Notes under the pieces: generated by a model
The model's database searches: none
Told to the model about the DNA's origin: nothing
Seen by the model: only the letters and a program-made list of their open reading frames with translations
Part shown: positions 5,535 to 63,995 of the stretch, one piece after another
How positions within the stretch are numbered: the stretch's first letter is position 1
Layout of the letters: the number at the start of each line of letters is the position of its first letter
Assembly: GCF_018873765.1 (NCBI RefSeq)
Contig: NC_057924.1
Coordinates: 16,641,001-16,705,000, forward strand
Source: Telopea speciosissima
Taxonomy: Eukaryota > Streptophyta > Magnoliopsida > Proteales > Proteaceae
Direction of reading: 5' to 3'
DNA: 64,000 nucleotides
Translations under genes and position numbers: made by a program

Positions 5535-5662
5535 TCATGTTCACGTACATGAATGTACGAGAACAGCTCATAGCCGTTCAGATGGAATCCACTATGTAAG
5601 TCCCACCTAGTGGATTCCATCTGAACGGTTGTGAGCCATTCTCATACGTGAACGTGAGCCCA
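5535..5662. mobile_element. foldback element with long arms
   Basis: The left arm ends CCGTTCAGATGGAATCCACTA. A 13-bp spacer follows, and the right arm begins with its exact reverse complement at 5609. The arms stay matched outward to GTTCACGTA with small gaps. A transcript would form a hairpin of about 45-50 bp. Confidence 0.85.
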
Positions 5663-7029: not shown

Positions 7030-9562
7030 CACTCCATCCCTCCCCTTGGATGCCCATATACACACTCCCATTGCCCCCCCACACTTACATAGGAACCTCG
7101 TAGAGACAGTAAATCCCTTCCCTGTTTTATTTTTTATTATTTAGCCATCAAGAAAAGAAGACAAGGATGGCAGTAGAAACTAGTAACATAAAAGTAGGAC
7201 CCATGGACGATTCAATCTCCCAAAAAGGAGGGGGGGGGGGGTAGGAAGGGGGGAAGTTCCTACATGTACCTTGTAGAATTCCATCCCTTCATGCCACTAC
7301 TTTTTCTTGTCATATAGATTAAATGATTCTTATGAAGTTTTCCTTTGCCGTAGAGGAGGAAAAATTCCTTCACCATGGATGAAGTGAGCTCATGATTGAC
7401 CATAAAGGCCCTGAACTCTAACTCTATTGTATTTTTCTCTTTTTAATTTTTATTTCTCTTTTTTCTCATCAAAAAACAAAATGTTAAATAAATGAGAATT
7501 CCGCAAAACACGCCTATTTCAATCAAATAACTTACTATATATGATGTTTAGTTAGATCTTCATAAATATTTACATTTGTAAATAATTTCTAAACCACTAT
7601 TGCATAGTCAAAAATACTTCATTAATTATTCCTCTAAAAGAACGGATCTTATTTTATTTTAACCAAAACTTTTCAAAACAGGTTACGTTGGTAAGCTTAT
7701 CAAATTCTCACCCCACCCCACCCCCCCCAAAAAAAAAAAAAAAAAAAAAAAAACCCAAGACAGATAAGCTCATCAAAATAGTCTAAAAATCTATCATGTG
7801 GAAAATCAGATGGGCCCAATATTTATGGACATGTAAACTCCAATCTGGCCCTTACCGTATGTAAATTTCAGTTGAAATAAAATTTTCTTGACACGTGGGT
7901 AATCTAGATCATGTACTTTATATCTAATGGTCAGAATTTCCACATTATTATTCTACATTGAACAATGAGGATGGTTTAATTACTTTGATAAGCATATTAA
8001 TGTCGGCCGCGAGAATGTGCTTTTCACTTTTATTTTTATACGTTTTTATATTCTATATATTGGTTGAACCATAAAAAATAATTAATAAAAAAAATTGATA
8101 ATAAAATACTATAAAATGAAGGATTTTATTGTTAGATTTTTATTATTTAGATTACATTACACAATAGAAACGTATCTTGTTCCAAGGGACAAACTATTCA
8201 CTAAAGATTAAAGAGTAATTTTTGCACTACATAGCCATTTTGAGGGTTAAAATATGTTACATTTGAAAAAAATAAAATAAAATACAATAAATTAGATAAA
8301 TATTTGAACTTATTTTTAAAACCCAATTATTTCAAAATTTTACTCCATTTTAAAAATTGAATAGATTTCAAATTTGGTATCCATTCTCAAACCTAAAATT
8401 CATGAAAAGCAAAACTTAAGACAAGACTCTACTCGATATCACTTCATTGCACTTCTCTTTGGTAAACTTATCATAGCATGAGAGCTATGTTTCTCGAGCA
8501 CATCTAAGTTTTGTATTTCTTCTACCATTAATAAAAGGGCAAGAGATCGTTGTTTGGTCACATAGCGCTTGCACTAGTGTGGGGACCAATGAGGGGTATG
8601 CAGAGATATCAATATAAATATGATTTTTTATTTCATAGGGGTAGGATGGTACTTTGCATGCTTGTGTTTAGGGTCAAGAGCCACACAACCAAGTAGTGTT
8701 CTTTTTCCTTGTCAAATGCCAATTAATCGGGCTGAAATTTAACATGTGAGTGAAGACCTTTAAGTCTACCTCTCTAAAAATTTCAGCCTCTATCAGACTT
8801 GCTATGTGTTACAAATAGGTGGACCATCCATAGATACCCTATGGATAGCCAGAATTTTTTTTTTTTTTTTTGGGGGGGGGGGGGGGGCTCCCTATATTTC
8901 CCTATATTTTCTATTAGAACTTGGTAATTATTTTAACCTACTTAATATCTTACCTGGAACAATTTAAAGAGAAATTAAAGATACAATATATACATCCGGA
9001 ATTTTTGAAGGTTTCCCAAAAGGCTATTGTGGAATTACTCAAGATCATTTGGGACTATTAGATTTTATGCCATCTAAATAAGGTGTTGAAGGAGTATAAG
9101 ATCTTTTTGAAAAACAATTGCTTGCAATTAAGTTTTCCTTCACCTATGGTGAAAAGAGAACCTCTTCACCATTGGTGATGTGACGTTATAATTGAACTCT
9201 TGGTATTTTGATTAAATTATATTTTTTTTTTTAGGAAAAATATTGCTATAGTGCCTTTGTACAAATTCTTTTAATCCCGTCTCACATAACTAAAAATTGG
9301 ACTCAAGCTCATTTTCTCTCTCCTATTCTGATCATGTGGATCCCAAATGAACCCCACATGGATGATATTATTTTCTAAACCTTCATTGGTGCAATGCAAA
9401 CTCCCTCTTATATACTGTTCTTGTAGGAAATCCTTCCCCCCATTTTTTGTTTGACTTTCTAGAGAATCTTTGTGTTTCTATCTCTCTCCTCAAACTATGA
9501 TGATACAATTATTGATTTATGTTCCATAAAAAAAATATTATTGACTTATGTCTTTATGGAAT
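7030..9562. other. gene-free AT-rich spacer
   Basis: No coding sequence was recognised. It holds a C-run followed by an A-run (7717-7753), a T-run followed by a G-run (8858-8887) and the MITE at 8537-8708. Around 9130-9185 is a short foldback built from TTTTCCTTCACC and GGTGAA segments. Confidence 0.5.
8537..8708. mobile_element. MITE, same family as 5071-5259
   Basis: It starts GGCAAGAGATCGTTGTTTGG and ends CCAAGTAGTGTTCTTTTTCC, with the same internal order as the 5.1-kb copy (ggggaccaatgag, then tttcataggggtaggatgg). Confidence 0.65.
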
Positions 9563-9755
9563 TGGATCTTATCTAGTCGTGGCGCAGCTGCACTTGTGCA
9601 ACACCGCTAAACGATAGAAAAAATAGGGGTAAGATAGTCATTTCATAGGTGGGTCCCATCTGGGCCCCACATGTGAAATGACCACTCTCCACCTGTATTT
9701 AGGGTGGTTTTTGGTGCTGCACAAGTGCAGCTCCCACCACAGCTGCACAAGATCC
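9563..9755. mobile_element. foldback MITE with GGATCTTNT ends
   Basis: The left arm GGATCTTATCTAGTCGTGGC...GCAGCTGCACTTGTGC pairs with the right arm read inward, GGATCTTGTGCAGCTGTGGT...GCTGCACTTGTGC. The centre is 'tcatttcataggtgggtcccatctgggccccac' and its mirror. Confidence 0.75.
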
Positions 9756-10001
9756 AAGTCCTGTTTCTATCTCCTTCTCTTCAAATTCAATTTTTTTTTG
9801 AATTTCTTCTTTTCTACATCCAAACGTAGCCTTAGTTTTGTTTAACCTCTTGCTTATTGCATGGTATATCTTGTGCCTTATTGTTCCCTGCCTAATTTTT
9901 TTCCTTCAAAATTAATCTAACTTACTAGCACCACAACTTCCAGAGTGTGTGTGGGATTGGGGATGAGGGGCGGGGGGAAGGAGAATTGGCATGCGCAATA
10001 G

Positions 10002-12280: not shown

Positions 12281-13200
12281 TCCTTTTTTTTTTGGTTTTT
12301 GGGTAAGAAAATTTTTATTAAGGATAACATGAGAAAATCATGATTGGACATTACATAGATCATGCAACCATGGATTAGAAACATGGCACACTATCATACA
12401 CGTCACCGATAGGGCCCTCCTTGCCAGGGAGTTAGCCAAGCTATTAATCTCGCTTGGAACGTAAGAGAAATACAACTAGGAAAATAAGTTGATAGATGTT
12501 TGATGTCCTCCAAAATAGATCTCAAATATGGAGGAGAAGCAACAGCTCCTTTTTGCACGTAAGTAATTAACCACATCCTAGGACTGTAAATAGGAAAGCC
12601 CATATTCTAGCTAAAGGGCTGCACTTTTGAAGCCAAGGTGTGGTGGTTGCATCCACCTCCTTTTTTTTGTAAATCCTTCTTTATTGAAGGATAACTTTGT
12701 TGATTCTTCTCTTTTTCTATGGATCTCGCTTGATGGAGGCGTTACCCCACCTTCTCTTGACCAAAAAAAAAACAGTAACCACATCCTTGCAATCCGATTC
12801 AAGAACCATCATTTCATAATCTTCTAACAACGCATATAAAAGAGCAACATGGATGGCCATGGCCTCTCCTGCTGCCACAAAATAGAAGTTTTTCTGGGAT
12901 TGACACTGCAAGGAGAGGATTACCACCAAAATCCCGACAAACCACACCCAAATCACCGGTTGAAGAATTGGGAATCAGACTTGCATCACAGTTTATTTTA
13001 ATGGTACTTGTAGTAGGAGCAATCCAACCAGTAAATGTCGGTGGTTGGAAAGTTTGAGTAGAATGTTGTGATCTCGGTGAAGATAAGGAATGCTTGAACT
13101 GCAGGAAAACTTTTGTAGAGGCAGCAATAACCTCTTCAAGCAACCAAATTTTGCGACAAAAAAATTGTTCATTTCTTGCCTACCTTTGGAGCATACTTAA
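12281..13200 (-). pseudogene. L1-type LINE remnant, RNase H-like domain
   Basis: Minus-strand fragments read KINCDASLIP...GDLGVVCRDFGGNPLL, then AAGEAMAIHVALLYAL, then VLESDCKDVV, and after an insertion LRSILEDIKHLSTYF. These are the D, E and D blocks of the plant LINE RNase H domain. At least two frameshifts break it. The 3' end shows the usual form on this strand: a T-run at 12283-12292 beside ggtttttgggtaagaaaatttttatta. Reverse transcriptase is missing, so it is 5'-truncated. Confidence 0.8.
12579..12775 (+). mobile_element. SINE-like retroposon nested in the LINE remnant
   Basis: About 197 bp lie between two copies of TAACCACATCC (12568-12578 and 12776-12786) and end in an A-run (12763-12772) just before the second copy. 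Removing it rejoins the RNase H text (KDVV followed by NYLRAK), so it is a later insertion. No pol III boxes are obvious, so it may instead be a short LINE-derived piece. Confidence 0.7.
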
Positions 13201-13413
13201 AACTTGGTTAGTCAACGACATCAGGTCACAGATTATTGCTTTTCAATAAGTGTGGCCCTTTTCATCCCTGTTTTTTTGATGAAAGTGTAATCACACAAAC
13301 CACACACCAATCCCAAAAGGTTAATCAGCCCTTATTAACCCTTTATTGAGTCTTTTGCTTGAACCTTCAGTGGTCCTTCTCACTTCTAGTGAGATTTTAC
13401 GAAGAAAAAAAAA

Positions 13414-13766
13414 GGGTAAATTACACGTCACCCCTGGGTTTCAAATGAAACTTAGATCACCCTCTGGTTTTTGAAAAAACTCAAATCACCCACTGGTTTA
13501 GATCCCAATATGACAAATTAGTTCATATCATTAGTTTTATGTTGTTATGTGATGATGTCAGCCAGTTAAATAAATTTAAATCCCTAAACTACCCTTGACC
13601 AATGTTGAAGATGAAGGAAGGGTAGTATTTTAAATTTATTTCTAATGTTTTAGTACAAGGGTAAAATCATTATTTCACACCAATAACTAACAGCAGACTA
13701 ACACTGTTACTATAAAGGGGGTGATTTGAGTTTTTTCTAAAACCAGAGGGTGACATGTAATTTACC
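13414..13766. mobile_element. small non-autonomous MULE, GGGTAAATTACA ends
   Basis: The left end GGGTAAATTACACGTCACCC and the right end read inward, GGGTAAATTACATGTCACCC, match, and both arms continue with CTCTGGTTTT...AAAAAACTCAAATCACCC. The flanks are A-runs that fit a 9-bp duplication but prove little. The ends belong to the same group as the Pack-MULE at 18484. Confidence 0.75.
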
Positions 13767-15203
13767 CAAAAAAAAGAGTAAAAAAATTTAGAATTAAAAC
13801 TATCTTACCATGTGGTATTTTGTGGCCAATGGACCAAAACAACCCCCGAGACTAATTTTACAAATATGCACAATGAAGTGTGGACAAAAAAGCTGCGTAC
13901 AAAAAGGTTAAAACCAGGTTTGCCGAGTGCTGCCAGCCCCCCCTCCCCACAGGCGAAGTATCAAGAGGTTCCCTAATCCAACTGTATCCATCCTAAGGGC
14001 TTGTCCTTGTGGTTCGTTACTCCTTTCGGAGAACTGCGACAGTAGCTTGAACAATGATTCAAGTCTCCTTAACAGCTCCAAGTCCACATTTACATGCTCT
14101 CCAAGAATTGGAGTCCTATGAATACCATATTTGATCCTTTGTGGATCTTCTCTTGCCTCCTTGTGGGGCCCTATGGCCAATCGGCCCTTGAATTACACAA
14201 TCCAGATCCTCTACTGTCGAGCTGCCCGGTAGGATCGTGTAGCCCAAACACATTGAGGCGTGCAATGACCGCCTTGCCCCTACCCAAACGCCTTATTCGA
14301 ATGGGGGTAAGACGATCATTGTATGCCTCACTGTATCTGGACTGCACGGCCCTGCCGAGCAACTCGACAATAAAGGATCACTATCCTGAATTACACCCCC
14401 CAAAAAAAATACACCAAAAAATGTGGTGATCAGTTAAACTCATACAACAGTAATTGATAACAACTCAAAAATAAATGGAATGGAATGGAACCATCGGAAG
14501 TTACTGCACACGACAATATGGTGATGGACTGATTGACCGGCCGACCATCAATGACCCCACCACTATTACTATGCCTGTGAATCTGTGATGGGATGCGATC
14601 AGACAAACAGACTTTGAGTGTTATGGGGTGGGTTGGGAGGGGAGGGGATGGTGGTGGGACTTGGAACTTGGAAGTGTGGAAGTGTGGAAGTGTGTAATTA
14701 CTTGATGGAGAGAGAGAGAGAGAGAGAGGATGGCCCAATGATTGGTCATGTAAGATGTGGGCCGGCCGACTTAAGAATTTCCTACTTGACTTGAAATTAA
14801 ACTGAGATCTGGAGTAGTAACACTTTGATTTCCAAACATCACCCCATGTTTGACCTGTCACTCACCATCTATGGTCGATCTAATCTATAAATCTAATCAA
14901 ACTAACAATAGGACTTCACAGAGACTCCGACAACCCATGCTGCCTCGCCTGTGAGCCGTGAAGGAGAGAAGAGTGAAGGGAGAAGAGAGAGTGAGAGTGT
15001 CTCACTATCCACCCCAACTTCAGGTGATTCAGGTCATTGTGAGTCCATATATCATTGGGTGAGGCACTGAGGCCCACATCACACCAGCCCTTATAATAAA
15101 CGGGCTATCATTGGGTGAGGCACTCGGGCCCACACCACCATTGAATGAGACACTGAGTGAGGCCCATGATTCTTAAATGAGTTGGGAGGTATAGACCTCA
15201 ACC
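13767..15203. other. gene-free spacer with a foldback MITE and GA microsatellite
   Basis: At 14192-14392 the arms CTACTGTCGAGCTGCCCGGTAGG and (inward from right) TTATTGTCGAGTTGCTCGGCAGG make a foldback. A (GA)n run is at 14708-14728. Nothing coding was recognised. Confidence 0.55.
14192..14392. mobile_element. foldback MITE
   Basis: Long imperfect arms centred on 'aatgaccgccttgcccctacccaaacg'. The arms contain GTCGAG(C/T)TGC(C/T)CGG(T/C)AGG and its reverse complement. Confidence 0.65.
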
Positions 15204-15865: not shown

Positions 15866-16023
15866 AATTTTTATCCTCTCCTGTTACAGCACGGTGCTGT
15901 AACGCATCATGCGGCGGCTGGAGAGGCCATGCGCATCATGTGAGGCCCGCTGTGTCATATGGCCTCTCCAACGCCGCACGATACATTACAGCACCATGCT
16001 ATAACAGGAGAGGATAACGATTC
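15866..16023. mobile_element. 158-bp foldback MITE, copy 1
   Basis: The arms TTTTTATCCTCTCCTGTTACA and its near-perfect mirror TGTAATAACAG..GGATAACGATTC pair over about 60 bp. An 11-bp direct repeat CTCGATTGTTT flanks it (15855-15865, 16024-16034). The second copy at 27866-28023 has exactly the same length. Confidence 0.88.
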
Positions 16024-16631: not shown

Positions 16632-17639
16632 AGTTTCTGAAAGGACCACCAAGGAAGGCAAGAATACACTACTATGTGCTATCACCCTGCCTTTTCTCTA
16701 TGGTTCTAGCACACATCAGATCGGGTATCTGTCACCTGCAAAACCGATACGATATTGTATCGGAAAAAATTTATTCCTGATTTTCTTTTAAAAAAAACAA
16801 GATTTTTTTTTAATTGTTTTACCCCTTGTCTGTACCGTGTCATTGATACAATATCGAGATCGGTGACTAGCAAAACTGTTACATATTGTTTTCTATAGGC
16901 GATATGATACCGATACCTCAAACCATGCTTTCCTCAGTAGCATGAAATGACTTTTCTACTTCAGTACTTCCTCAATGTATGAAATTGTTTCCTTGTTGCC
17001 CTCCCTTATGGCGCTTGCTAGAGAATCCTCTCTTGTTCATAACTAGGATTCAAATCCTCTCCAATGAGGAGATTGTCCAATGAGTGCCCAATGAGGCATC
17101 CAACAATTGGGTTGGCTGGTGCACACATCCCAACGCACTCTCAATCAGCAAGTCAAGCTAACCCATCCATTGGATGCTCATTGGGCATTCATTGGATGTT
17201 CTCTCCATTAGGGAAGATCCTAATGTATTGGACTTGGAATCTGAGGACTTCACGTTTGTGAAGCCATTTTCTATGGCTTCCATTGTTTTTCCAGTCCAAT
17301 GTCTCTCCTCCTTATGGGACCTGACTTTCCTCCAGCCGTGGTGGGAGTTGGAGGATCCAGCCCAACCAAAAGAGGGGGTTTGATCATTTCATAGGGGGGC
17401 CCACCTGTGAAATGACCCAAACACCCCTATTTTGACTGGGTTGTATCCTCTAGCTCTCGCCACAATTGGAGGAGAGCCGAATTCCTCCTTATGTGGCTTA
17501 GCAACGATTGACACTGCTAAAAAATCATCCTTATGGCTAGGAAGTCTGGAATACTCTGGAGCACTTACCTTTACGGATACAATAATTAAGGGACACTAAT
17601 TATGTTGGTTTATTAGCGTGTGTTTCACGAGGGAGGGGA

Positions 17640-18474
17640 ATCTTCACGTACATTATAAAAGGAAAATTTATTGAAGAAAACCTCTACGGAAGAAAATACA
17701 AAAAACATCAGAAAAAAGAAGCAATAAAATGATCGGTTGGGGGGTGGAGAAGTTCCACACTACAAGGTCGTTGGTATGGACACCAAACGTTGCTAGAGCA
17801 TCCGCTGCAAAGTTCCCTTCACGAAGAGTGTGCATTATTGTCACTGAATCAAAATGAGCCATTAGAATTTGACAATCCTCCAGAATGTTCTTAACTCTCC
17901 ATGGTATTGAGGCATTGAGCCCTTTGAGGGAGTTGATCAAATTATCTCCTTCTATGATAATTCTTCTGAGACCATATAAATTTGCCAAATATAAGGCCTG
18001 TCGGACCGCTAATGCTTCAGCCACCAATAATATTGTTATGCCAACAAATGCCGCAAAACCAAATAAGAATTTCATTAGAGTCTCTACCCACTCCTCCAAT
18101 ACCAGCCGGGCTTGGATTCCCTTTGCTTGCCCCATCAATATTTATTATGACTGTGCCTAATGGGGGCAATTTCCAGCAAATTTGAGTGTTGAGACGTTGC
18201 TTAGCTGACTGAGGAACATTTTTGTAATATTCTTTGGCTAAATGTATAGCTTTGGATGCTATAGAATTGTTTGGTTGAAGGTAATCTCCATGAACAAAGC
18301 CCATATAGGATGTCCGTAACTGCCACAAACTACTTGCAATGGTTGATAATCTTATTCTCTCCCCTCATTAGGTGAATGAGACTGGATAGGCTGACGAAGA
18401 CAATTGTAATATCAAACGACATTAAGCATTCCAGTAGCCGAGTTCTTTTCCATAAAGCTTGAGCCTTTGGACAA
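17640..18474 (-). pseudogene. L1-type LINE fragment, RNase H half (3' part)
   Basis: Minus strand: INIDGASKGNPSPAGIGGVGRDS, then after one frameshift AEALAVRQALYLANLYGL, IIIEGDNLI, and HTLREGNFAADALATF. These are the four acidic blocks and the His of the LINE-type RNase H domain. Further 5' on the strand, near 18460, CPKAQALWKRT belongs to the zinc-binding RT linker. The sequence stops at 18474 and resumes at 19973 because the Pack-MULE sits between. Frameshifts make it non-functional. Confidence 0.85.
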
Positions 18475-18483
18475 TTTAAAAAT

Positions 18484-19963
18484 GGGTAATTTACACATAC
18501 CACCCCTAAGGTTTGATGAAAGGATAATTTTACCTCACAGTTTTGAAAAATTCTGCATACCCCCCTTGAGATTTATAAATAATAACAAATAAATCCATTC
18601 CGTCAGCTCATGATTAACAGTGTTAAAAATAAAAGGTGAATTGATAAAATTACCCTTGCAAAAAAAAAAAAAAAAAAAAAAACTGGAAGATTCCGTTGTA
18701 GGGTTTCAAAACCCTTTTAATCTTTTAAGGCATTTAGGGTTTCAAATTGAAAAAAAACCCTCAAATCAAAACTTTTTTGCGGACCTGAGATACTCACTAA
18801 CATCAATCAACACTGAACCACACCCAAAAAGAAACGTCCTTTGTTCTGTATCTGTTCAAGACAGGGTGTACCTTCACACCGATAACAGTCAAGGGGAAGT
18901 TCCCATTGAAGACGAAACCAGTGAGACAACCGATTCAAGAGGCCGCGATCCTTCCCAGAAAAATCCACGGGAAACTCATCCATGTTGCATTCAGACGAAG
19001 ATGATGGAGATGGAGTTTTCGGGAAATCGACGACACCGGATGAGTAGTGAAGATCATGTGCTCCACAGCGTCTGACACCCCACAATTCGTAACCGTTATC
19101 TTTTTCTGTTGCGAGGATACTAAGATTGGCCTCGCATATTCCAAAGTAAAGAGGGGGGGCCTTTTCTGTTGAAAGGTAAGATTCCCGGAAATGGATGGGA
19201 AGGTGAAATCGTAGAGTTCATAGCAGCTGTTCCGTCCTATGAGTTTCGAGAAATTTCGATCATGAATGAAAATCATCTTTTCCTTGTAGTCGATGTTTTT
19301 AACCTCCAAAATGTCCTCCGGATCTTCTTTAGTAGAATTGACAAGTTGTGCTATTGAGTTGTCAAAACAATGGACGACGCCTAACCCACATTCTTCCTTT
19401 GGGTATATGGAGAAGGGGTAACTGATGTTTAATTCCCCACAGTTGGAGTGGAAGGGAGCACAACGGTGGATCAAAAGGTTTTCTTCTTCATCAACTGATG
19501 ATCCAAGTGAAAGCTGCGACACAATTAGTAAGCAGAAGAAGAAAAGAAAAACAAGAAGAACAAACGAGGAGGCATGCTTATGGGAAAACAATATTAATGA
19601 AGAAGATTTTAATTTTTTGGGTTTTGGGGGGTGGTTCAGTGTTGACTGATGTTAGTGAATATCTCACGTGTGCAAAAGGGTTTTGATTTGGGATTTTTTT
19701 TCAATTTGAAACCCTAACTTTCTCAAGGGTTTGAAAGATTTTTAAACCTTGGGGAAGATGAGTTGCAGGTTTTGTTTTTATCTTTTTTTTGCAAGGGTAA
19801 TTTTGTCAGTTCACCTCTTAGTTTTAACACTGTTAGTCATGAACTGACGGAATGGCCTTATTTGTTACTATTTACAAACCTGGGGAGGTACATAGAATTT
19901 TTCAAAACTGGGAGTAAAATTATCCTTTCGTCAAACCTCAGGGATGGTATGTGTAAATTACCC
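18484..19963 (-). mobile_element. Pack-MULE carrying a receptor-kinase gene fragment
   Basis: A 1480-bp element with TIRs of about 175 bp: 18484-18659 and 19791-19963, starting GGGTAATTTACACATACC on both sides and about 85-90% alike by eye. A perfect 9-bp duplication TTTAAAAAT lies at 18475-18483 and 19964-19972. Long TIRs plus a 9-bp duplication define the Mutator superfamily. There is no transposase. The 1.1-kb interior carries a host gene fragment on the minus strand (see 18807-19591). It is inserted in the LINE, whose halves join across it. Confidence 0.93.
18807..19591 (-). pseudogene. captured fragment of a LRK10L/WAK-type receptor kinase ectodomain
   Basis: The main frame runs 19591-18935. 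It opens with a hydrophobic signal-like run (FVLLVFLFFFCLLIVSQL), followed by CAPFHSNCGELNISYPFS, ECGLGVVHC, and the closing hydrophobic and charged text typical of the galacturonan-binding WAK ectodomain (GUB_WAK_bind). After a frameshift near 19000 the second frame continues with LSHWFRLQWELPLDCYRCEG, which fits the cysteine-rich WAK-associated part. No kinase or membrane segment is present, and the codon at the expected start is TTG, not ATG. It is therefore a captured, decaying piece, not a working receptor. Family placement is by motif only. Confidence 0.75.
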
Positions 19964-19972
19964 TTTAAAAAT

Positions 19973-20520
19973 AGATGATTTGGGTTTTTATCAATCCAGC
20001 CGAACATATGTGGCATTGCGGCGATATGTTTATTCCCCAACCCTTTAGCAGATCCGCTGTTGGTAATCGACCCTGAATCAACTTCTATAAGAATATTTTA
20101 ATTTTTGGAGCCGTTGGAATGTGCCATAGTCTTAACCAAATAGAGTTAGCTTGGATAGTTTCACTATCAATTGTTACCTGTATGCCGAAGAAACTGAGAA
20201 ATTGCCATTACTAGTTGGAATCCAAATAAATCGATCATCAGAAGATTGAAGAGGAATAGGGGCCGGGGATAGCCAATATAATATCTGTTATATCATCAGG
20301 CCACCAATAACGAACGTACTCTTCTTTCCATAGTCTAGAATTAAAATCTATTAACTCACTTACCCTATTTGGAGCATTGAAAGGAACTGGGAAAGGAGCA
20401 GATCCTGGTGGATAATTGGGAATCCAGTAGCCTTGCCAGGGATTAATCATAGACCCATTACAAACGTGCATAAAAAGGCCTTTCTTCAATAAAGGGATAG
20501 AACTTGTAACCAATTTTCAT
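19973..20520 (-). pseudogene. L1-type LINE fragment, RT C-terminal/zinc-binding half (5' part)
   Basis: Minus strand from 20513: KKGLFMHVCNGSMINPWQGY, then SELIDFNSRLWKEEYV and DDITDIILAIP, the segment just after reverse transcriptase in plant L1 elements. After a frameshift it continues SSDDRFIWIPTSNGNFSVSS and KIKIFL...GRLPTADLL and CHICSAGLI (zf-RVT). The text carries on at 18474 beyond the Pack-MULE. 5'-truncated at about 20520. Confidence 0.82.
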
Positions 20521-21204
20521 GCCCAAGAAGATAACACAGGAGTAGTGGCATGTATGATATCCATTGAAGGCCTTCCAACAAAGGATATCATTCACCATTT
20601 TTTAAATATTGACATTGCATGTGTGCTGTGTAATTCAGGACAGGAATCACATTGGCACCTCTTTATCTCTTGTCCTTTCTCAAAACGGATATGGGCAGCA
20701 GGACCCCTAGGCCTTAGAACTCAGCACCTCAGAGATTCATCAATTTTTAATCTTTTATCCAATTGTCTTTTCTCCGACCAAAACCAATATTGTGGAAAAA
20801 ACATTCGTTTTATCCATTTTTTCCATTACTTCCTATTTCATATGGATGATCAAAAATGAATGCACCTTTCATAAGCAAAATCCAAATCCCTCCCAACTCA
20901 TGCATAACATCCATAGATGGATCTTCGATCTAAAAATCCAACCAAAGTCCATGCCTACCTCAATACCACCACTAGGAGATGACTTTAGACCATCTCTGGA
21001 GCAATACTTGGCGAGCATACGACCAAATGTGATCGGAGTTTTGGGTTCGCCGGGATCTAACTTGTCTAACTCCCTCAACCAAACACATACTTAAGAAACC
21101 GGTGGGAATTGGAACTGCTTGGGTCCATTTAAAAGGCATATATAAACCTAATTTAAGGGTTATGTCCTTATGGAAGATGTTTATTTAACTGGTTTGGGAA
21201 TTTT
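20521..21204 (+). pseudogene. second L1-type LINE fragment, opposite orientation
   Basis: Plus strand: GLPTKDIIHHFLNIDIACVL, CNSGQESHWHLFISCPFSKR, IWAAGPLGLRTQHL, then after a frameshift FIWMIKNECTFHKQNPNP and WIFDLKIQP. This is the zf-RVT block and the linker to RNase H. It overlaps in content with the neighbour on the left, so it is a separate insertion. The right end is interrupted by the next LINE at its duplicated target. Confidence 0.8.
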
Positions 21205-24363: not shown

Positions 24364-24456
24364 CGAGTCTCCTGGCTGGTACCTTATCCCCTTCCCGGTT
24401 CGATCCCCCTCCTCTAGACAAAATATATATATATATAAAGCTCCCAATTCCAAAAA
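24364..24456 (+). mobile_element. very short tRNA-derived SINE (unit 1 only)
   Basis: 93 bp between two copies of ATACACCAAAGTA (24351-24363, 24457-24469). Unit 2 has the empty site (near 26206). It contains a pol III B-box-like GGTTCGATCCC at 24397-24407, an A-box-like CTGGCTGGTACC before it, an AT microsatellite and a short A-tail. Confidence 0.85.
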
Positions 24457-24741
24457 ATACACCAAAGTATCAAACCATAAACAAAGAAATACACGAGAGA
24501 AAAACATATTGTCTAGTGTTTAATTGTCACCTATCTTATTCTCAAAAAGTTTTTAAGATAGGGATACAATAGTGTTTTCAAAAATAAGTTGAAAATGATA
24601 TATTATTATGTCAATAACAAAAGGTGTCATTGTCATACAAATTTTTTTTAGTATATATGTGGAATAACATTATTATTCTATTAGAAAAAAAATGTCATAC
24701 AAAAATGGCAAAAAAAAGTAAGGTTACAAATTTGAAGGGTG

Positions 24742-25464
24742 TGTTTACACCTTATTTTCGTTCTATTTCAGTCAGCAGAGAAATAGATCGAAATCTATTA
24801 CAATCAAAACTAACTTGTCAGTCAGTGATCAGAAAAGAAAATGGTCAGTGACTGACGGAAGGTGACTGACCGACCGAATGGTCAGTGATCGACGAATGGT
24901 CAGTAGCCGACGAAGAGTGACCGACGAAGAGTCAGAGATTGACAAATTGTGTGTGAGCGACGAGCGGTCAGAGTTTAACTAAAATGTGTGTGACCGACGG
25001 ACGGTTGCTAAATGGGTAGTTATGAAACTACCTAGTAACTGCAGAAACTACCCCAAGGATACTTATAAAAGGGAGTTTCAGCACAGAAGATGTGATCCCC
25101 GGATCAACAACACAACACTCTACAAGAGCCTTTATTTTATTTTATCTTTTATCTCTTCATTTTATCTTTCACGATGATCGAGTTTATTTTTATTTTTCAA
25201 GATGATCAAAGTTTATCTCTCATCTTTGTCTTTAGCTTTCTTAGATTTCATCTGTTATCAATAATACTACAATTTTTCTATATTTTTCCTTCTTGGCATT
25301 GTGATCATTAAAAGTCCTTGGAGCGATCGAGGCAATGGAAAGAACCTTTTCTTTCCTGGCTAGAAGTCAGATTCAATCATTTTATTATCTCTTGAGTCCT
25401 TGCGACTCTGGCATGCTTGCGCATCTTCAACTCACGTCGGTGTTTGCTGAAAAGAGGGTAAACA
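24742..25464 (+). mobile_element. LTR-like segment in unit 1
   Basis: It runs from TGTTTACACC to GGGTAAACA. It has a TATA box (ACTTATAAAAGGG, 25061-25073), a pyrimidine-rich leader, and a primer-binding-like TTTTGGCACACCCGGCGGGAC directly after the end. Its front part is an unusual array of GACCGACGAA/GGTCAGTGA words. Behaves as an LTR of a gypsy-type element whose body is missing. Confidence 0.7.
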
Positions 25465-26496
25465 TTTTGGCACACCCGGCGGGACACCATATTATCGCCA
25501 AGAAGAAGGAATGCCGATGAAGGGAATTTATTCCCGAATCAAGCAGTGAAAATGTGCTCAACCAGGGGCAATTCTGCTGGAAATGAGCATCGAAAAGCCG
25601 TAACCCATTGGCAAGGGGCACGGTTTATGGCCAATAGATTTGTAATGGTTTAAAGAAAAAAAAAATGCTCTCTACAATTTAGTAGGACTTGGTTGGCCTT
25701 GACTTGCCCTGCTTTTTTGCCATTTACGTCATCCTATGCATTAATAAAATGAGAAACATGTGCTTGGGTATTGATTTGTTTCATATTCAATTGACTATTA
25801 GACTCTTCTTTGGGTTAAAAAATTTAGTCCAATCTGAAAATCATAAATATTTTCATTTAATATATAAATTAGCCTTTTTTTTGGGTAAACCAATAGATAA
25901 TTAGATACTAAAAAAATTTGTAAACTATAAACAATAAATTGTAAAGCATAACCTGACACAGGGTTGGGCCGGGCCTCCCATGGCCCAGCCCAACCCTGTC
26001 CCGGGGCCTGAAAATTTCAACCCTTACCCGCCCTCAGGGTTGAAAAATTCAGCCCAGACCCTGTTCGGGCTCAGGGCGGGCTTGGGCTAATAGGGCAAAA
26101 TTGACACCCCTAATTGGTACTGCCCTACAGTACTTGTCACCATAGTACAGTTTAACCACATACTTCAAGATTGATTAGTGTTCTTTCTCTACAACTAATA
26201 CACTAAAGTATCAAACTATAAACAAAGAAATACACGAGAGAAAAACATATTGCCTAGTGTTTAATTGTCACTTATCTTATTCTCAAAAAGTTTTTAAGAT
26301 AGGGATACAATAGTGTTTTCAAAAATAAGTTGAAAATGATATATTATTATGTCATTAACAAAATATGTCATTGCCATACACATTTTTTTTAGTATATATG
26401 TGGAATAATATTATTATCCTGTTAGAAAAGAATTATGTGTCATACCAAAATGGTGAAAAGAGTAAGGTGACAAATTATTTAATACCTTGAAGGGTG

Positions 26497-27213
26497 TGTT
26501 TACACCCTATTTTCGTTCTATTTCAGTCAGCAGAGAAATAGACCGAAATCTATTTCAGTCAAGACTAACTTGTCAGTCAGTGATTGGAAAAGAAAAGTGT
26601 CAGTGACTGACTGACAAATGGTCAGTGACCGACGAATTATGAGTGATCGACGAATAGTCAAAGATTGACAAATTGTGTGTGAGCGACGAATGGTCAGAGG
26701 TTAACTAAAATGTGTGTGACCGACGGACGGTTGAGAAATGGGTAGTTATGAAACTACCTAGTAACTACAGAAACTACCCCAAGGATACTTATAAAAGGGA
26801 GTTTCAGCCACAGAGGATAGGATCCCCGGATCAACAACACAACACTCTACAAGAGCCTTTACTTTATGTTATCTTTTATCTTTTATCTTTTCATTTTATC
26901 ATTCAAGATGATCGAGTTTATCTCTCATCTTTGTCTTTTTATTTTTCAAGATGATCAAAGTTTATCTCTCATCTTTGTCTTTAGCTTTCTTAGATTTAAT
27001 CTGTTATCAATAATACTATAATTTTTCTATATTTTTCCTTCTTGGCATTGTGATCTTAAAAGTCCTTGGAGCGATCGAGGCAATGGAAAGATCCTTTTCT
27101 TTCCTAGCTAGAAGTCAAATTCAATCATTTTATCATCTCTTGAGTTCTTGCGACTCCGGCACGTTTACACATCTTCAACTCACGTCGTCGTTTTGCCGAA
27201 AAGAGGGTAAACA
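26497..27213 (+). mobile_element. LTR-like segment in unit 2
   Basis: Same boundaries (TGTTTACACC to GGGTAAACA), TATA box near 26798 and downstream TTTTGGCACGCCCGGTGG as the first copy. The two copies differ by scattered substitutions and a duplicated CAAGATGATC...TTTATCTCTCATC stretch. Confidence 0.7.
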
Positions 27214-27865
27214 TTTTGGCACGCCCGGTGGAACACTATATTTTCGCCAAGAAGAAAGAATGCCGATGAAGGGAATTTATTCCCAAACCAGGCAGTGAAA
27301 TGTGCTCAATTGAGAAGCCGTAACCCATCGGTAAGGGGCACGGTTTATGTCTAGCAGAATTGTGATGGTTTGAAATTTAAAAAAAAAAATGCTCTCTACA
27401 ATTTAGTCGGACTTGGTTGGCCCTGACTTGCCCAGCTTTTTTGTCATTTACGTCATCCTATGCATTAATAAAATGAGAAACATGTGCATAATCTAGGTAG
27501 CCTTTTTTTTTTTTTTTAATTCTTTTTAATTTTTATATAAACTAAATCCGTCTACGTATTCCATTCCACTTGAGAGATTTTTTTTTTATTTTATTTTTTC
27601 AAACCAATTGAGAGATTTCACTTTCATACATCGACAATAAAATTGAATCAGATAACATGACTTTGGTGATGCCTTATCTGATGATCACCAGAATTTATCA
27701 AGAAGAGCTAAAGCCAAAAGGGACAGCGAAGGTCTAGCCGCCTAGCTCACAATACTACAAAATATCCAATTCATTATTTGTTCTCTACCCAATAAGCAGG
27801 AACTTGGCCAACTTGGTAGATTTCAAGCCAAATGCATTTATATGTTTCTTGTTGCCATGTGATAG

Positions 27866-31005: not shown

Positions 31006-31264
31006 GAAATTTGATTCCAGTGTTCATCCCGAACTATCTTAATAATAGAAAGGTGTGTTTATTTAGGCTTTTGGTATAGCTAAGAAGAATACCAACAACA
31101 TATCTTAAAGAATAGTAATTGCATCACCCAAGCGATCATGCTATTCCATCCATCCACAAAAGAATAAAAAGAAACATCACTTAAGTTGTAATTATCTAAA
31201 TGGATTGGAAATAGGTAAAGAAATTTGTTTTTTGGCTCCAGATTTTATCAACAAAAAAATTTTA

Positions 31265-31436
31265 TGGGAAAAAGTTTTCTGTCCGAGAGTGTGGCATATG
31301 TCAGCACTCCCATTAGTCTATCTCTCTCCTCCCCATTTGAAAAGACACCTTTACCCCCTTTTTGGAGGAGGAGAGAGATAGACACATGAGAGTGCTGGCG
31401 TATGGCACCCTCTCAGACAGAAAACTATTTCCCATT
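31265..31436. mobile_element. foldback MITE
   Basis: The arm GTTTTCTGTCCGAGAGTGTG...GTCAGCACTCCC...GTCTATCTCTCTCCTCC is mirrored after a short centre by the right arm (GGAGGAGAGAGATAGAC ... CAGACAGAAAAC). Confidence 0.85.
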
Positions 31437-43577: not shown

Positions 43578-44514
43578 AACAGAGAGGACTCTGAAGAGGA
43601 TTAGAAAACAGTTCTAGGATTTCTACCTCGTCCATGAAAGAGAAAAATGTTAAGTTCTCGATTTGCAGATTTCAAATGGGAACCACCAGAAGAAAAAGAA
43701 AGAAATTTGTGAGTGGAATGAAAAGAAACCCTCTTTCTACGTTCCTCTATAACAAAACAGAGAGAGAAAAACATTCAACCAAAAAAAAAAAAAGATAGAA
43801 AGATTTGATCAAAATCACAGAGATTGATATATAGATCATCAAGGATGAAGAAACTATCACGACAACCGGAGCAAACTTTTAGTTCGACTAACGATTTGCA
43901 AGATCTAAAACGAAAGAATAGAGAAAAAAATGTGAAACATTTTGTAAGAATAATTGAAACAAAAATGAAGGGGATACTGAGATTGCCTAAGTTGAACGAA
44001 CACATTCTGTCCTTAAGACAATATTTGCACCGTTATTACTGTAATGGGTTACGGCAAATCTGCTTTCCAAGATAAATCAGGCTTGACTTAATCATTGTTT
44101 TGTAGGAACAATAATCTTACTTGAAAAACTATATGAGAATGACTGAATTCGTGAACTATTTATGGGCTTGCACTTGGTTGTTCGGATGGGTTGCAACCAT
44201 TAGGCTCGATGCTTGTTCGAAGGGTTACACCCTTTGGTTCAGATACCAATCCAACAGAGAGGACTCTCTGAAGAGGATTAGAAAACAATTCTAGGTTTTC
44301 TACCTCGTCCATGAAAGAGAAAAATGTTAAGATCTCGATTTGCAGATTTCAGATGGAAAACACCAGAAGAAAAAGAAAGAAATTTGCGAATGGAATGAAA
44401 AGAAACCCTCTTTCTACGTTCCTCTATAACAGAAAAGAGAGAGCGAAGCATTCAACCCAAAAAATAAAAAAAATGGAAAGAAAGATTTGATCAAAATAAC
44501 AAAGATTGATATAT
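43578..44514 (-). mobile_element. TRIM-like element: two direct repeats with a primer-binding-like site
   Basis: Direct repeats of about 260 bp (43578-43833, 44253-44514; roughly 90% alike) enclose 419 bp. Read on the minus strand, the right repeat is followed within 3 bp by TTGGTATCTGAAC (44249-44237), close to the TGGTATCAGAGC initiator-Met primer site of many plant LTR elements. No coding sequence. Clean TG...CA ends and a target duplication were not found, so simple duplication is an alternative. Confidence 0.6.
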
Positions 44515-44557
44515 ATATATATATATATATTGCGCACCTCATTATATTCCAGCATGA

Positions 44558-63776: not shown

Positions 63777-63995
63777 TTCCTAACGTATTCAATCTCTTAA
63801 ATCTTAATTGGAAAATAGAGACAGAACTCAGGAGAGAATACTTTTGACAAGAATATGAAACTTTGAAATTAGGAGCATCAAGCTGCATCATTAAGGAGTT
63901 TTATATCAGTTTCATATTCTTGTCAAAAGTATTCTCTTATGAGTTCTGTCTCTATTTTTCAATTAAGACTTAAGAGATAGAATACCTTACGAACG
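63777..63995. mobile_element. long foldback element
   Basis: Left arm 63777-63871 and right arm 63912-63995 are inverted copies of about 84 bp with few mismatches (for example GAGAATACTTTTGACAAGAATATGAAACT, split by a short loop). RNA from here would be a long near-perfect hairpin. Confidence 0.9.

Follow-up and report, generated by a model that had tools for sequence, protein, structure and literature searches.

Pack-MULEs, reportedly the subject of Jiang et al. in 2004, are the described elements closest to the one analyzed here. Like them, our element has long TIRs, a 9-bp target-site duplication (TSD), no transposase that we could find and a piece of a host gene inside, and it shares with them a donor elsewhere in the genome and siblings carrying other pieces. 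We see no essential difference from Pack-MULEs; the interior of this element was found in no other element in a whole-genome search. Passages of two papers describe such elements (PMC13317346, PMC4858842). In the parts of the literature covered, elements of Pack-MULE type number in the thousands in rice and most captured pieces are called non-functional, and some are expressed, give rise to small RNAs or show selection (PMC2528002, PMC13317346, PMC4858842). MULEs with multiple long TIRs, as outlined in PMC3310237, likewise combine a gene fragment with long TIRs, but our element differs in having no tandem TIR. A grapevine MULE family with cellulose-synthase pieces, as portrayed in passages of PMC2528002, is alike in its transduplicated gene piece and 9-nt TSD but carries another gene, in intronic and exonic sequence, whereas our element holds part of a single exon. 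Titles and abstracts from a literature search contained no receptor-kinase capture by a Pack-MULE, which is no proof that none is in print; the passages of PMC8903248 contain neither "receptor" nor "kinase", and three TIR strings had no match in the text of the literature searched. Set beside these systems, the element is a genuine, decaying Pack-MULE, ordinary for plant genomes.

The window, that is, the whole 64-kb stretch of DNA analyzed, is C9:16641001-16705000 of an 823-Mb genome (G000), and the element fills 1480 bp of it (18484-19963) between exact 9-bp repeats (Table 1). The perfect duplication on both sides that had been described in the earlier note is indeed exact. Its TIRs of about 175 bp were real inverted repeats of which only the outer half had been seen: the arms are about 345 bp long (347/342 bp) and 86% identical over aligned bases, with 90% identity in the outer 175 bp, 73% in the middle ~70 bp and 89% in the inner 92 bp. 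A reading of the inner similarity as tandem TIRs was rejected, as it continues one 345-bp TIR. The terminal 20-mer, allowing up to three mismatches, has two matches in the 64-kb window versus 0.01 expected, and across the genome TIR matches occur at dozens of further places; at least 98 matching pieces were counted, among them the element and the donors, with the best 40 of 2520 candidates scored. The TIRs are probably Mutator-type, an assignment that rests on TIR length and the 9-bp TSD and not on a transposase. As the earlier note had it, there is no transposase among the Pfam matches of five open frames of the element (two on the minus strand, one of which was also run in a longer form, and three on the plus strand); the sole Pfam match of the plus-strand frames, SPT6_acidic (E 0.027), lies below the cut-off. 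An exact TIR 20-mer had no match in viral contigs. Separately, the family's terminal 19-mer has one exact match in genome contigs, in a bacterial MAG (L001:7472-7490), which reflects chance or contamination.

Table 1. Features of the element and its insertion site (positions in the window).
Feature	Position	Strand	Basis or remark
LINE remnant, one target side, RVT_3 (RNase H-like) frame at 17668-18141	17668..18474	-	RVT_3 E 3.8e-13
Target-site duplication, left copy TTTAAAAAT	18475..18483	.	identical to 19964-19972
Left TIR, 347 bp, begins GGGTAATTTACACATACCAC	18484..18830	+	86% to reverse complement of 19622-19963; TIR family elsewhere in genome
AAAA common to TIR end and donor exon, 4-bp overlap at one capture junction	18827..18830	.	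reading of alignments
Captured piece, GUB_WAK_bind receptor gene first exon, donor codon 3 to first base of Cys codon (TGT in dB)	18831..19606	-	88% to dA and dB; three-way alignment
Open frame of 218 aa as listed, from a TTG that is no start but the internal donor codon Leu8	18935..19591	-	
Net 2-bp insertion versus both donors (G7 run), frame broken	19153..19161	-	
15 bp assigned to neither donor nor TIR, in place of donor codons 1-2 (ATG GGT) and 5' sequence	19607..19621	.	
Right TIR, 342 bp	19622..19963	-	alignment to left arm
Target-site duplication, right copy TTTAAAAAT	19964..19972	.	identical to 18475-18483
LINE remnant, other target side, zf-RVT match	19973..20204 (end approximate)	-	zf-RVT E 3.9e-10

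The element is inserted into a LINE remnant, pieces of which lie on either side; the zf-RVT match was obtained on a stretch with X typed at one stop. When the flanks are joined at a single TSD, an open stretch, NHLFLNCPKAQALWKR, runs across the join. Pfam had no match for this stretch, joined or not, and the LINE frame changes shortly before the join. The argument for a formerly empty site rests on the TSD, the two flank Pfam matches and, by eye, the open join. Other repeats in the window include a 1.3-kb direct repeat of 86% identity (24456-25763 and 26197-27487), a ~260-bp direct repeat of 90% (43578-43836 and 44253-44518), and palindromic stretches of ~90-220 bp that look MITE-like by eye (63777-63993, 31264-31435, 15871-16017, 9558-9761 and 5555-5647).

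Searching the whole genome with the interior gave five candidates, all scored: the element itself, two full-length genes and two lesser pieces. The genes, dA (C11:55238065-55238859) and dB (C11:55359287-55360057), lie 121 kb apart on contig C11, and both match over query positions 1-776 at 88%; the lesser matches are an 86-bp piece on C1 and, within the C11 cluster of these genes, a partial one at 71%. The matching frame of dB opens with an ATG; it is the ectodomain frame, and hydrophobic/juxtamembrane (judged by eye; no Pfam match) and kinase (Pkinase E 8e-44) frames follow it in that order on the same strand. In dA, a kinase frame also lies downstream (E 8.7e-46). For GUB_WAK_bind, dB clears the 29.4-bit cut-off with 34.3 bits and dA falls just short with 27.8, and WAK_assoc, absent from dA and dB, appears below the cut-off in a neighbouring paralogue. 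A search for a donor gene in the same genome, the check that the earlier note had proposed, thus yielded two C11 genes with a kinase frame downstream of each, and the claimed capture of a receptor ectodomain holds, the interior matching the first exon of two GUB_WAK_bind receptor genes. We take these receptor kinases to be LRK10L-like. The captured piece comes from their ectodomain exon, and, unlike them, the element lacks a kinase, a start codon and a transmembrane part.

These two genes are the donors or close relatives of the donor. They resemble each other over ~1.5 kb at 91%, extending past the captured piece on both sides, which argues that copying ran from gene to element. There is no TIR similarity in the 15-kb stretch around either donor, and outside the exon the element matches these stretches only in A-run pieces and in one 58-column piece in a neighbouring paralogue. 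Three-way identities are 90.5% for the element and dA (698/771), 89.0% for the element and dB (681/765) and 90.3% for dA and dB (696/771), and the sites shared with one donor or the other form a patchwork with a three-way split. Since dA, dB and the element are about equally distant from one another, the copy may stem from a third paralogue, lost or unassembled, or gene conversion may have been involved. A separate observation concerns dA (L010:6823-9366; C11:55236322-55238865), where the similarity to dB ends before the kinase frame and the kinase frame resembles, by eye, that of another neighbouring receptor gene (12563-13834 in dA coordinates) rather than that of dB: a domain swap within the C11 cluster is possible.

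On the 5' side of the gene, the donors' ATG GGT is TTA AAA in the element, the position of the donor ATG reading TTA (19610-19612). Most simply, the capture missed the ATG; its later loss is also possible. On the 3' side, where the AAAA overlap between TIR and donor lies, the piece ends at TTCTTTT, the last base of which is the first of a TGT (Cys) codon in dB; dA has a different length there and continues to FVLYGHESR and a stop. A neighbouring paralogue (L055) ends in FCAVPNHG, which suggests that the donor exon would end about 20 bases past the capture breakpoint. Intron retention is uninformative here, since all of the captured sequence comes from a single open donor exon, and DNA and RNA templates cannot be told apart.

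We consider it very probable that this is a decaying, non-autonomous Pack-MULE that copied ~776 bp of a GUB_WAK_bind first exon and inserted into a dead LINE. The earlier note had arrived at a Pack-MULE as well, and the TIRs, the 9-bp TSD, the lack of any transposase found and a gene piece with its donor outside such elements bear this out. In the history that we propose, a member of a Pack-MULE family would have copied this part of a receptor-gene first exon between its TIRs, perhaps by gap repair or template switching during transposition, as the 4-bp overlap and 15-bp filler at the junctions may indicate. The donor ATG would have been left behind at capture rather than lost later, and insertion into the dead LINE at the present site, then decay, would have followed. 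The element most likely is a harmless leftover of a well-known process.

Alternatively, TIR-driven, antisense or fold-back transcripts of the element could be a source of small RNAs dampening the donor receptor genes, an idea that the earlier note had also raised. Such an effect is unlikely, though if the element acts at all, RNA would be the likeliest route, with a transcript sharing 21-mers with donor mRNAs. The 21-mers of donor exon 1 that are shared exactly (73 of 841 for dB, 80 of 808 for dA) make small-RNA action on the donors possible, and the arms, at 86% alike, could let a full-length transcript fold back; against this, 17500-21000 contains no Rfam match at the gathering score, a result that says little about siRNA.

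The Pack-MULE reading also places the element in a family. A further 36 loci with these TIRs were drawn from the best 40 of 2520 candidates, and 35 of them have paired ends within 4.2 kb (L027 has no pair). A perfect, unshifted 9-bp duplication flanks 20 of the 35 siblings; allowing one mismatch, shifts of up to three and lengths of 8-10, the count is 34 of 35, several of them A/T runs in which chance matches come easily, and L034 has no credible duplication. Open frames were picked for length and look from 20 of the 35 elements, and 13 of the 20 match a Pfam family at E 0.01 or better, a rate that is no estimate for the family; two of the 13 (L017, L053) lie below the curated cut-off. These pieces represent LRR, kinesin (two), PPPDE peptidase, zinc knuckle, Agenet, 3'-5' exonuclease, CRAL_TRIO_N, FH2, BMT5-like, senescence regulator, MORN and COBRA C-terminal. 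Enrichment for receptor genes is not claimed: two of 36 elements (22 interior clusters) are too few, with a minority of the interiors identified. Dating by TIR divergence was likewise rejected, since an arm's own partner is its nearest relative for just 6 of 72 arms (36 elements); the arms of the window element, compared over their outer 180 bp, are 88% identical, the sixth-lowest value among the 36, and each is closer to other elements.

The LRR piece belongs to a sibling Pack-MULE, L023:234-1969 (C2:80296233-80297968; TSD A9), in which the 5' part of an LRR receptor-kinase gene is found, 97% identical to C10:59094635-59095670. It has an in-frame ATG, a signal-like stretch, and LRRNT_2 and LRRs, and is open for 305 codons. 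Compared with the C10 gene, it has lost 4 bp, which leaves its first ATG (of two) out of frame, and has gained 1 bp, which brings the frame to an early end; over the 305 codons open from the second ATG, 9 of 19 changes are synonymous versus 27% expected, a hint of constraint that is weak and may just as well reflect the donor. On the basis of this 305-aa piece and the GUB_WAK piece of the window element, the MULE family might carry receptor ectodomains repeatedly, supplying the host with kinase-less receptor modules or with small RNAs against receptor clusters, a scenario that we regard as quite improbable.

A secreted receptor decoy made from the minus-strand frame had been suggested in the earlier note. 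The frame is of receptor type, as that note claimed, with a GUB_WAK_bind match (PF13947, E 8.9e-8, 32.8 bits versus a cut-off of 29.4, residues 44-111), and its start is signal-like, judged by eye; WAK_assoc was not found in the element, even on read-through with X at the frameshift, and a kinase domain is absent from its frames by Pfam. However, the supposed TTG start was a misreading of donor codon 8, the donor ATG being replaced by TTA. In the same register, an ATG at 19840 meets a stop after nine codons, and the first ATG to open the donor frame, at 19276, falls near residue 106 of the 218-aa frame, past the signal-like stretch and almost the whole domain, such that no start codon and signal peptide were found in one open frame. 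Furthermore, the frameshift is real against both donors, which have four and five G where the element has G7, and the copy stops before a cysteine that follows in dB. With the ATG absent, the first usable ATG late and the frame shifted, a secreted decoy from this element is very unlikely indeed. The missing donor ATG and the net insertion agree with the earlier view of a decaying copy.

Substitutions allow the decay to be examined further. The 38 changes unique to the element fall 15/11/12 on the three codon positions, and 9 of them are synonymous versus 24% expected without selection; the changes unique to either donor show a similar picture (9 of 29 and 9 of 44 synonymous), so this test fails to discriminate. 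Apart from the frameshift, the donor frame has no stop. With 38 unselected changes the chance of zero stops would be ~0.23, and with 78 it would be ~0.05, which leaves room for much of the divergence to be older than the capture, or for some constraint; the remaining length differences mostly come in multiples of three, as would also fit divergence before capture. A protein search of a 5.8-billion set returned 128 candidates, none at E 0.001, and a sequence search of the PDB gave no match up to E 1. We infer no protein-level role for the element.

That the interior is instead what remains of an older receptor gene once present here, flanked by TIRs by chance, is refuted almost beyond doubt by breakpoints that abut the TIRs (at one TIR end there is a 4-bp overlap with the donor homology, at the other a gap of 15 bp) and by the interrupted target, both flanks being LINE pieces.

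The decaying Pack-MULE in this window is a well-resolved case, with the element, its target, the matching genes and the two capture junctions all placed to within a few bases. It illustrates that a captured piece may look like a secreted protein on a raw reading despite a missing start codon. For asking whether captured receptor ectodomains get used, the sibling L023 is the better object.
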